Shown here one piece after another: positions 1-11,937 of a DNA stretch of 26,485 nucleotides. Below the pieces are notes generated by a model. That model made no database searches, was not told the DNA's origin, and worked only from the letters and a program-made list of their open reading frames with translations. The DNA lies in the IMG/VR virus record IMGVR_UViG_3300037502_000963, positions 1 through 26,485 of that record; one strand, 5' to 3'. The DNA is from a virus. A program made the position numbers and the translations under genes. Numbering within the stretch: the stretch's first letter is position 1; each line of letters begins with the position of its first letter.

Positions 1-984
1 ATGACCAGGTATTCCTGTTATCGTAGTAATGTAACCTTTTACAAAAGTTAGTAACCTATCAAATTTATCAAATCCAATATTAACTCCTCTGTCTAATCCA
101 TTTTCATACAAATCAAATATTTCGTTTTCCATGTCTTGAATTGTAAACACACCTTCCAATGGATAATCTTTTGCATCTTGTATACTTTCAATTATTCCTT
201 GTATTCCAAACTTTTGTAAACATTCGTTTGCATCTTTACAATCCTTAAAAGTTACCAGCTTACATTTTTCTTTTCCTAAACGAGTTGCAAACTCTTCAGT
301 TAATTGTCTCCCAGCATTATCATTATCAAAACAAAGATAAATAGTTGGAGTTTCATTAAATCTTTCAGATATGTAATCAAAGTATTGTAAATTGTTATTT
401 GATACATTTGCTCCGTTCGGAACGCTTAAAACGTTTTTATAACCACTTTTATACATTGATAAGGCATCAATCTCACCTTCTACTAAAAAAGCGTTTAAAT
501 CGAATTTAAATAAGTTTAAACCATAAAATATAAGTTTAGCATCTTTATGCAGTTTAAAATTCTTTCTTGCATCCCTATATTTGATGTTTATTAGTTCGTT
601 GTTTTCATCAAAGTAATTAAATTGAATTGTGTTTTCATCTTTTTGAGTTTGTGGCATCCATTCAACACCTTCTGTAATTTTCCAATCATTTATTGTTTTT
701 TGGTCTAAACCTCTTTTCTCAAACCATTTAATTGCTTTGTCGGATAAATCAGTTTTGTTTTTCCATTCAGGCTTAACATAAACTTTTTCATCTATTGCAA
801 TTTGTTTAGGAAGCCATCCTTTCCAGTTACAATGATTGCAATGCCAAACTTGTTTATATAAATTAACTCCTAAACATTTATCAGTTTTCTTTTTGCGCTC
901 ATGTGAACATTTTGGGCAGGTAGTGTAAACTTGCCCTGTGTATTTTCCATTAGGAATAATTATATTGTAATCTGAATAAGTCAT
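1..984 (-). CDS. DNA primase-helicase (T7 gp4-like), 3' end outside window
   Basis: Replicative primase-helicase of the phage fork; 328 residues are visible and the frame is still open at base 1. Residues 23-52 hold a zinc-binding pair, CPKC and CNHC, typical of the primase zinc finger that reads template sites. A TOPRIM core follows: EGEIDALS at 169-176 supplies the conserved Glu, and DNDNAG at 220-225 the metal-binding Asp pair. The last visible residues, TGIPGH, look like the beginning of a RecA-type Walker A loop, so the helicase domain is cut off by the window edge. The ATG at 984 overlaps the stop of the upstream replication gene by one base (TAATG), so the two are translationally coupled. 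Family assignment is from motifs; whether the helicase half is intact cannot be seen. Confidence 0.93.
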   Translation of the reverse strand, partial: MTYSDYNIIIPNGKYTGQVYTTCPKCSHERKKKTDKCLGVNLYKQVWHCNHCNWKGWLPKQIAIDEKVYVKPEWKNKTDLSDKAIKWFEKRGLDQKTINDWKITEGVEWMPQTQKDENTIQFNYFDENNELINIKYRDARKNFKLHKDAKLIFYGLNLFKFDLNAFLVEGEIDALSMYKSGYKNVLSVPNGANVSNNNLQYFDYISERFNETPTIYLCFDNDNAGRQLTEEFATRLGKEKCKLVTFKDCKDANECLQKFGIQGIIESIQDAKDYPLEGVFTIQDMENEIFDLYENGLDRGVNIGFDKFDRLLTFVKGYITTITGIPGH

Positions 985-1523
985 TAGTAAATCATTTGAT
1001 TTGGGTTAGTTGGATCGTACTTAATTTGTTTTTCTTTAATAAATGGTAATGTATTTAATAATTTAGTTTTCCAATTTATTATTTTTTTATCATTACCATC
1101 TTTCCAATTATTATTTATCCAAGATTCATATTTTAATTTTACAGCTTCAGAATCTACATTTGGTTTTTGTTCAATTGCATAAGATAAAAAAGAATTTAAA
1201 TTAGGTATATTATTATTTATTTCTTTTACTTCTTCTTTTACTTCTTCTTTTTCTTGTTTATTAGGGGGTATTATAGACCCTTGCATAGGGGGTTTATTAG
1301 GGTTAAATTCTTCATCTTTTGTAATATCATAATAACCCTTAACCTGAGCATCAATAGAATGTTTCTGTGATATATAGGCAAATTTTGCCATACCTTTTAA
1401 ATTAGGTTCTATATTTTTAAATTGCTTATTAAATAAAGCATCGTAAAAAGCTAACCTATCTTTATCATTTAATTCACTTGCAACTTCAAAATAACTTATA
1501 TAAAATTTAATTGCTTTTCGCAT
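984..1523 (-). CDS. Phage replication protein (replisome-organizer-like)
   Basis: 179 residues. The N-terminal part (about 1-70, with a KDRLAFYDALF stretch) resembles the DUF6291-type domain found at the front of many phage replication proteins. A low-complexity Lys/Glu/Asn linker follows (about 90-105). The C-terminal part (about 110-165: FLSYAIEQKPNV, KYESWINNNWKDG, INWKTKLLNTLPFI) is the helical tail usual in phage replication initiators of Bacteroidetes. Its position directly before the primase-helicase, with overlapping stop and start, supports a role in origin recognition or helicase loading. That role is inferred from context and family resemblance; no catalytic motif is present. The gene is the first one downstream of the structured leader at 1531-1614, so its expression probably depends on read-through of that element. 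Confidence 0.7.
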   Translation of the reverse strand: MRKAIKFYISYFEVASELNDKDRLAFYDALFNKQFKNIEPNLKGMAKFAYISQKHSIDAQVKGYYDITKDEEFNPNKPPMQGSIIPPNKQEKEEVKEEVKEINNNIPNLNSFLSYAIEQKPNVDSEAVKLKYESWINNNWKDGNDKKIINWKTKLLNTLPFIKEKQIKYDPTNPNQMIY

Positions 1524-1530
1524 TTATAGA

Positions 1531-1614
1531 AAATAAAAAACCCTTCGGCTTTCGAGGTAACGGACTCTACTCACCAAAGGGGTTAAAATAATATTACTGA
1601 TGCCGTTACTCATC
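1531..1614 (-). ncRNA. Structured leader / candidate attenuator or small RNA
   Basis: Between a promoter-like site (1620-1651) and the replication gene start at 1523 the minus strand can form two hairpins. Hairpin 1 is GATG (1614-1611) with CATC (1602-1599), leaving AGTAACGG in the loop. Hairpin 2 is an 8-bp stem, CCCTTTGG (1581-1574) with CCGAAGGG (1548-1541), including one G-U pair. An inner GAG/CTC stem (1572-1570, 1556-1554) lies within it. The loop of hairpin 2 contains CCGTTAC (1563-1557), a perfect 7-base complement of GTAACGG (1609-1603) in loop 1, giving a kissing-loop or pseudoknot. A U-rich run (1540-1531) follows hairpin 2 immediately, as in an intrinsic terminator. I could not match it to a named RNA family. 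Pairings were read by eye. Confidence 0.6.
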
Positions 1615-1619
1615 TTTTG

Positions 1620-1651
1620 CAAATATACAAAAAGTTTTTTAATTATTCCAA
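1620..1651 (-). promoter_or_regulatory. Bacteroidota-type promoter for the replication genes
   Basis: On the minus strand TATATTTG (1627-1620) matches the TAnnTTTG -7 element of Bacteroidota sigma-A promoters. TTG (1651-1649) lies 21 bases upstream as a -33 element. The same hexamer-spacer arrangement is seen at 5929-5961. Expected transcription start is near 1613, which is the first stem of the structured leader. The -33 part lies inside the 3' end of the preceding gene. Confidence 0.6.
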
Positions 1652-1924
1652 TCCTTTGTAAAATTCTTCACGCATATTTGAATTAATAGTGTGATAAATG
1701 TCTCCGATTTTATCCAAGTATTCACCCTCAGTTATATTCCTTTTTTCAAGTTGTTCTAAAAGTTTAAAACCGATTCTTTGCCATAGATTAAAGTCAGCCA
1801 GCATCTTTTGTTTATATTTACCTGTTAAGTGAGTGCTTTGCTCAATTGTTGCCTTGAATAAACCAATTAATAAATGGCTTTCAAATTCAAGTTTTGCTTG
1901 TTCAGGTGTTAGTGTTTTTTCCAT
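1643..1924 (-). CDS. Hypothetical early protein, helical
   Basis: 93 residues, predicted mostly alpha-helical, with no cysteine cluster, membrane segment or signal peptide. I do not recognise the family. It begins inside the NinG-like gene (23-base overlap, 1902-1924) and is the last gene of the early run before the second promoter. Its final codons contain the -33 part of that promoter. A recombination or replication accessory role is possible from context only. Confidence 0.75.
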   Translation of the reverse strand: MEKTLTPEQAKLEFESHLLIGLFKATIEQSTHLTGKYKQKMLADFNLWQRIGFKLLEQLEKRNITEGEYLDKIGDIYHTINSNMREEFYKGLE

Positions 1925-11366: not shown

Positions 11367-11885
11367 TTAAATGTATTTCCAAATAAAACCTCCTGCTGTT
11401 TTTCTTATTTTTGAACCTGAAGCAACAGCAGCAATGCTTCTATGGTCAATTCTTGTTTGTCTATATGCTTCTCTTACTCCAATAAATTCAGAAATCAAAT
11501 TATTATTTTTATCAAATTGTCCTACCTTTTTTTTAAGTGGACTTGTTTCAATTTTTTTCTGCGTTGTTTTTTCTGAGAATTTTTTACCTTTTTGTGAAGG
11601 TGGCATAAGACCTCCTTCTAATATATTAAATAAATTATCATATTCTTTAATATATTTTTTTTCTAACTCAATAGCTTCTTTAACTTCTAAATTAGAATGC
11701 AATATTTCCAATAAAGGTAAAGTTTTATTTTTTTTCAATTCAATTAACCACTGATGTTTTGCGTAATTATCTTTGTTAGATAATCCACAATGTTTATAAT
11801 ATCTTTTTTTAACATTAGTAGTCATTCCAACATATTTAACATCTTTTGTTAATGGACATCTTAATAAATAAATAGTGTATTTCAT
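11367..11885 (-). CDS. GIY-YIG homing endonuclease with NUMOD domains
   Basis: Freestanding intron-type endonuclease, a selfish mobile gene rather than a virion gene. From the chosen ATG at 11885 the protein starts MKYTIYLLRC, i.e. the GIY strand, with KYVGMT as the YIG part. An Arg (KKRYYKH), a catalytic Glu (IELEKKYI) and the FNILEGG closure follow. A NUMOD3-like helix (QKGKKFSEKT) and a C-terminal NUMOD1 segment (VGQFDKNNNLISEF, FIWKYI) supply DNA recognition. A longer in-frame start at 11936 exists, but the extra 17 residues belong to no domain. It lies exactly between portal (stop at 11938) and connector (start 11362), and is richer in Lys/Asn codons than its neighbours. Confidence 0.9.
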   Translation of the reverse strand: MKYTIYLLRCPLTKDVKYVGMTTNVKKRYYKHCGLSNKDNYAKHQWLIELKKNKTLPLLEILHSNLEVKEAIELEKKYIKEYDNLFNILEGGLMPPSQKGKKFSEKTTQKKIETSPLKKKVGQFDKNNNLISEFIGVREAYRQTRIDHRSIAAVASGSKIRKTAGGFIWKYI

Positions 11886-11937
11886 AAAATTATTTTTATG
11901 CAATATACTAAATATTTTCGTGTCTACAAAATTCATT

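Follow-up and report, generated by a model that had tools for sequence, protein, structure and literature searches.

The window analyzed here is a 26,485-base virus record whose gene set (ERF, YqaJ, NinG, DUF6291, primase/helicase, and terminase) points to a tailed phage with a Bacteroidetes-type host. A leader spans minus-strand positions 1627-1535, between two genes of the same strand. Upstream, a 93-amino-acid (aa) gene of unknown function (1643..1924) stops ahead of the promoter; downstream lies a 179-aa DUF6291 gene (984..1523; Pfam E value, 7.5e-8) whose product is replication-initiator-like. The next gene in the operon overlaps the DUF6291 gene and encodes a DNA primase/helicase (Toprim, phrog_239; 1..984, minus strand). 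Elsewhere in the window, amid structural genes, a minus-strand GIY-YIG-homing-endonuclease-like open reading frame (YTIYLLRCPLTKDVKYVGMTTNVKKRYYKH; 11367-11936) has no leader ahead of it.

Structure of the predicted leader RNA

A first-pass annotation had proposed that a kissing-loop leader, driven by a promoter and ending in a terminator, lies directly ahead of the replication genes, and our analysis supports this reading. The parts that it listed (a -7 element, a 4-bp hairpin exposing GTAACGG, the complement CCGTTAC, and a U-tract) are all present on the minus strand. The -7 element, TATATTTG (1627-1620), fits the flavobacterial sigma-A consensus TAnnTTTG and its position from -12 to -5 (PMC9723704), and a box of the same type also precedes most homologous leaders. 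The RNA is predicted to start at A1615, where hairpin P1 begins (GATG/CATC; 1614-1611/1602-1599). The P1 loop (A-GTAACGG) holds the 5' kissing strand GTAACGG (1609-1603) and is followed by an unpaired, A/U-rich linker (1598-1582) of variable length and sequence. P2, an 8-bp terminator-like stem including one G-U pair (CCCTTTGG/CCGAAGGG; 1581-1574/1548-1541), encloses a conserved core made up of G-TGAGTA on the 5' side (1574-1568) and GAAAG on the 3' side (1553-1549), both invariant in 26 aligned RNAs. Within the core, the 3-bp inner stem S3 (GAG/CTC; 1567-1565/1556-1554) closes a loop (T-CCGTTAC) carrying the 3' kissing strand CCGTTAC (1563-1557). The 8-bp hairpin annotated as exposing CCGTTAC stands as stem P2, but the loop itself is closed by S3. 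A U-tract (T6; 1540-1535) completes the intrinsic-terminator-like signal, and the ATG at 1523 lies 11 nucleotides (nt) past it rather than the 8 counted originally. A stable hairpin with an immediate U-tract, in a leader behind a promoter, is the layout of an intrinsic terminator or attenuator.

The AGUA/GAA joint of the core (UGAGUA/GAAAG) forms what we take to be a loop-E (bulged-G)-like motif. Loop-E (sarcin-ricin, bulged-G) motifs with an AGUA/GAA internal loop occur, for example, in T-box stem II; loop-E is a motif rather than a family, however, and the leader has no T-box features. The window contains the arrangement GTAACGG-N(25-55)-CCGTTAC a single time, 100 shuffles contain none, and the fold of the 84-nt RNA beats 199 of 200 shuffles (z = -2.66). 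Shuffling the leader alone yields an equally loosely placed 7-nt complementary pair about 4% of the time, and the single-sequence evidence for the kissing pair is moderate. It is the comparative evidence that settles that the pair is real.

Comparative analysis of homologous leaders

Relatives of the DUF6291 gene carry the leader at the same place with diverged sequence; one of them (L003) has GTTGCAG/CTGCAAC in place of GTAACGG/CCGTTAC. The core pattern GTGAGTAGAG-N-CTCGAAAGC matched 71 stretches in viral contigs, and inner-stem variants of the pattern added further viral stretches, giving a total of 95 loci, from which 67 distinct RNAs were kept. Selection was based on the stem, the U-tract, and the inner stem; the kissing pair was not a criterion. 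An exact kissing match of 6 to 8 nt was nevertheless found in each of the 66 RNAs whose upstream sequence was long enough (7 nt in 60 RNAs, 6 nt in 5, and 8 nt in 1), comprising 26 different sequences. In an alignment of 26 RNAs, 94.8% of pair cells form, and both sides have changed in 19 of 23 pairs. For the kissing helix, 97.3% of cells are paired. Pairing reaches 69% in shuffled controls and at most 41% with slid partners. The first-pass annotation had made its proposal depend on compensatory changes in related phages, and these are strongly present, with all seven kissing pairs compensated in the alignment. Covariation extends to all four helices, the kissing helix included; S3, for instance, appears as GAG/CTC, AGG/CCT, GGG/CCC, GTG/CAC, and AAG/CTT. 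The invariant letters include GUGAGUA and GAAAGC. The U-tract is nearly universal, with interruptions in some leaders (L023 and L047).

No covariance model in Rfam 15 (including isrK, c4, riboswitches, and ribozymes) matched at its gathering score, and subthreshold matches in the window were at chance level, in agreement with the earlier annotation, which could assign no known family. A search of open-licence papers found no description of the leader RNA. Judged by covariation, the leader is a structured RNA family not listed in Rfam, with very strong covariation of its tertiary (kissing) contact. A pistol or hepatitis delta virus (HDV)-like ribozyme, which would have a similar helix order, was rejected given the lack of an Rfam match and the nearly universal U-tract, and a type III antitoxin or CRISPR-repeat mimic was rejected for want of repeats.

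Distribution and genomic context

Among 84,980 species genomes, we found three exact core matches, none with a kissing pair or U-tract, as expected by chance. The model gave no match in 396 Bacteroidota genomes, searched under stricter filters and without a positive control. Because neither set gave a true match, the leader seems to be carried by phages and to be uncommon in prophages. In annotated phages, blastn with the RNA itself returned nothing true, and cultured examples were reached through a downstream protein. Olleya phage Harreka_1 (42 bits; kissing GTGGTGG/CCACCAC) and Flavobacterium phage elemoF (41 bits; GTGGAGG/CCTCCAC) carry the leader one to two genes upstream of a gene annotated as a replication protein. 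Cellulophaga phages phi19:1 and phi10:1 have the same layout with another joint (kissing GTACGAC/GTCGTAC). Flavobacterium Lillamyvirus and Muminvirus isolates also share the layout with a different joint; their leaders have no significant match to model R2 and are either analogues or distant members. Leaders of the promoter-kissing-terminator type with still other joints (TTAGTA/GAACG; UGAC/UGAU) were seen in the same or related phages (L025:2167-2273, L046:1057-1141, L080:1254-1337, and L249:3010-3091 [minus strand]), those of L249 and L080 preceding replication-like genes. Nearly all matches in a pattern search with the L046-type joint were due to chance. A second recurrent unit, a promoter plus short terminator of about 70 nt (TAAATTTGCTCTTCGTTCTTTGTG...GTGCTTTTTT), lies elsewhere in several of these phages (L229 minus strand, and also L232, L233, L241, L246, and L248) and is possibly a small RNA.

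In 61 of 65 cases, the start codon of the downstream gene lies 0 to 14 nt past the U-tract. This interval has no room for a second promoter; transcription of the downstream genes must therefore pass through the hairpin, which becomes part of their mRNA. The case for a cis-acting leader rests chiefly on this point. The annotated link to replication genes holds (DUF6291, replisome organizer [phrog_13246], and DnaD-like loader [phrog_186]) but is too narrow, since many of the distinct RNAs are followed by genes for homing endonucleases or other nucleases (GIY-YIG/NUMOD3, HNH_3, phrog_655 and phrog_99 homing or HNH endonucleases, and endonuclease-VII-like proteins). KilA-N and a few unknown genes make up the remainder. 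Two of the proteins, that of L140 (160 aa) behind a leader of the class described here (class 1) and L383 gp88 (QQO97094.1) behind a class 2 leader (see below), are look-alikes of unknown function (MSFLEQDLENIIYK.. and MNILEKDLEEIIYK..), both with a PD-(D/E)XK-like pattern.

Close relatives carry a different RNA behind the same promoter, which we call class 2 RNA (L006:2864-2990, L011:1502-1629, L013:2220-2347, L089:2436-2563, and L383:1347-1482). In its fold, P1 and an upstream strand precede a long terminator stem that holds two hairpins, and there are one or two kissing pairs, which covary. The upstream strand and an inner loop pair in five variants: CATCTAC/GTAGATG, CTGTAAC/GTTACAG, CTATAAC/GTTATAG, CTATCAC/GTGATAG, and, in Nekkels_1, GTCTAAC/GTTAGAC. 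The P1 loop can pair with the other inner loop (TTGGAA/TTCCAA in Nekkels_1). Class 2 RNAs also contain a possible antiterminator hairpin, ACATTTAG/CTAAATGT. In phi19:1 and Nekkels_1, 49 promoter bases are identical, and then the RNA class differs. This identical 49-bp promoter segment upstream of the leader (L386/L383 versus L381) is found in phages of different genera, with the RNA class swapped directly after it; this is a recombination joint. That two unlike folds at one place both tie an upstream strand to a terminator loop suggests one function.

Exchange of kissing alleles

The 44 members of the group around the window have no more than four kissing sequences between them, with counts of 18, 13, 11, and 2. 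The discrete alleles exchanged between loci nearly identical on both sides are GTAACGG, GTTGCAG, GTCGTGG, and GTTGCGG. Of 157 pairs whose downstream DNA is 90% identical or more, 79 differ in allele. Mean divergence over the 157 pairs was 0.205 for the kissing strands and 0.188 for the linker, compared with 0.000 for P1, S3, and the core, 0.025 to 0.028 for P2, and 0.033 downstream. In L017 and L053, for example, both flanks are nearly identical, and the alleles are GTCGTGG and GTAACGG. The Flavobacterium phages lillamy, morran, and snusmum/mumin, which are virulent (PMC7077304), were isolated on the same two host strains, and their otherwise similar leaders carry three alleles (GTGAGACG, GTGAGAAG, and GTGGAACG), all compensated. 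A single sample can hold different alleles or classes, and L046 and L080 each have two leaders with unlike kissing sequences. Such discrete exchange in otherwise fixed loci could point to RNA-RNA specificity in trans, and it is unusual for P1 to stay fixed while the neighboring kissing helix is exchanged, a combination that a specificity determinant would show. Recombination without selection on pairing is also possible, because the linker diverges equally.

Possible modes of action

We consider the leader to be probably a cis-acting transcription attenuator with a kissing-loop fold, carried by phages of flavobacteria-like hosts; from its layout we infer termination, read-through, and regulation with its input. 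Host RNA polymerase would initiate at the TATATTTG promoter, at A1615. P1 would fold first, and its loop would then pair with the S3 loop, with P1, the kissing helix, and S3 stacking as one rod beside the loop-E-like joint. Once the 3' arm of P2 emerged, P2 and the U-tract would act as an intrinsic terminator, at which some polymerases would stop (RNA of about 80 nt) and the remainder would read through to the gene 0 to 14 nt on. The fold would set the read-through and some factor would tune it, limiting or timing the synthesis of costly phage proteins (replication initiators and homing nucleases). The annotation's two options, a leader or a small RNA of about 85 nt, are on this scheme not strict alternatives, since termination would give the small RNA and read-through the leader. 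Its suggestion of a pseudoknot that could form together with the terminator or be exclusive with longer-range pairing survives in part: all helices can coexist, and the kissing pair and P2 are not mutually exclusive, so that class 1 offers no evident two-state switch. An alternative antiterminator pairing in class 1 was rejected, as truncated RNAs fold into the long-range kissing strands and the 5' arm of P2 has no common alternative partner.

A terminated RNA of about 80 nt might also act in trans, as a sensor of copy number or co-infection, although we find this doubtful. Its loops would kiss nascent leaders of the same allele and alter their termination, and more genome copies, or more co-infecting phages with the same allele, would mean lower expression, by analogy with plasmid antisense RNAs and incompatibility groups. 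Alleles swapped between near-identical loci such as L017/L053, with P1, S3, and the core the same and P2 hardly different, argue for such a role, as do the three compensated alleles in cultured phages of the same two hosts and the mixed alleles or classes in one sample, with unlike leaders even within L046 and L080; IsrK and P4 are precedents, and plasmid control RNAs show a similar logic (see below). Pairing within one RNA should, however, outcompete pairing in trans, the similar divergence of kissing strands and linker leaves room for recombination with little selection, and no further conserved or consistent target of the alleles was found in the phage genomes. We are equally tentative about self-recognition among lytic phages, in which terminated copies would recognize and shut down same-allele leaders while co-occurring phages exchange alleles or modules.

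The strong fold, the position of P1 at the extreme 5' end, and the U-rich stretch abutting the start codons would also suit a constitutive structured 5' leader that gives nuclease protection or a ribosome landing site with little termination. This is unlikely: a stem followed at once by T6 to T9 is a textbook terminator, and protection needs neither a kissing loop nor allele exchange. A small-molecule site formed by the invariant UGAGUA/GAAAG core and the kissing helix and controlling termination is very improbable, even though about 13 invariant core nucleotides, a tertiary kissing contact, and a fused terminator are what many riboswitches have. The leader is found in phage contigs only and is absent from the searched host genomes, where an aptamer ahead of cellular metabolic or transport genes was not seen, and the genes behind it have no metabolic role; the core can change to TTAGTA/GAACG and AUUA, cultured phages show other joints, and a generic loop-E motif accounts for the core. 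We give hardly any credence to a self-contained small RNA gene with other (host) targets and incidental downstream genes: it would explain the promoter-like box, the terminator-like hairpin, and the conserved core, but not why the start codons of genes from few classes follow at a fixed 0 to 14 nt, and the core is paired or structural while the loops vary most.

Relation to known RNAs and implications

The attenuator that we favor has partial counterparts. IsrK of prophage Gifsy-1 is a 77-nt phage RNA with its own promoter and intrinsic terminator; read-through yields the downstream mRNA, on which the short form acts in trans (PMC4825925). An IsrK-like dual-RNA layout would fit the leader, whose putative short and long forms are read from that layout, but IsrK belongs to an enterobacterial prophage with an antirepressor downstream, and the leader has no Rfam match at the gathering threshold. 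With the P4 seqA/CI RNA and the c4 antisense RNAs, loop pairing in a phage replication-gene leader controls premature termination (PMC4825925, PMC2864571). These RNAs serve lysogenic immunity, with a processed CI that pairs in trans, whereas both strands of the leader lie in one RNA; cultured Muminvirus relatives are virulent and have no lysogeny genes (PMC7077304), and neither pattern nor model placed the leader in host genomes (84,980 species; 396 Bacteroidota). Plasmid control RNAs (I-complex RNAI, the repZ pseudoknot, and the pT181 attenuator) use kissing loops in replication-initiator leaders, and a few loop changes make new specificity groups (PMC10724649 and references therein). They are, however, made from the opposite strand, and no antisense RNA is evident at the leader. 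Structured RNA also lies directly upstream of the T4-type homing endonuclease genes I-TevI, segB, mobE, and seg43(25) (PMC2988022), but most of these hairpins hide the ribosome-binding site and have no kissing loop, terminator, or family in common with the leader.

The leader is phage-restricted so far, is common to replication initiators and selfish homing endonucleases, and is swapped between relatives both as alleles and as whole modules. As it occurs in cultured phages that have laboratory hosts, attenuation and allele-specific action in trans are directly testable. To our knowledge, gene control in lytic Bacteroidetes phages has been little studied. Self-recognition, if true, would make replication and the expression of homing nucleases depend on genome copy number and would create RNA-encoded compatibility groups. 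The leader would add RNA attenuation to replication control in lytic Bacteroidetes phages.
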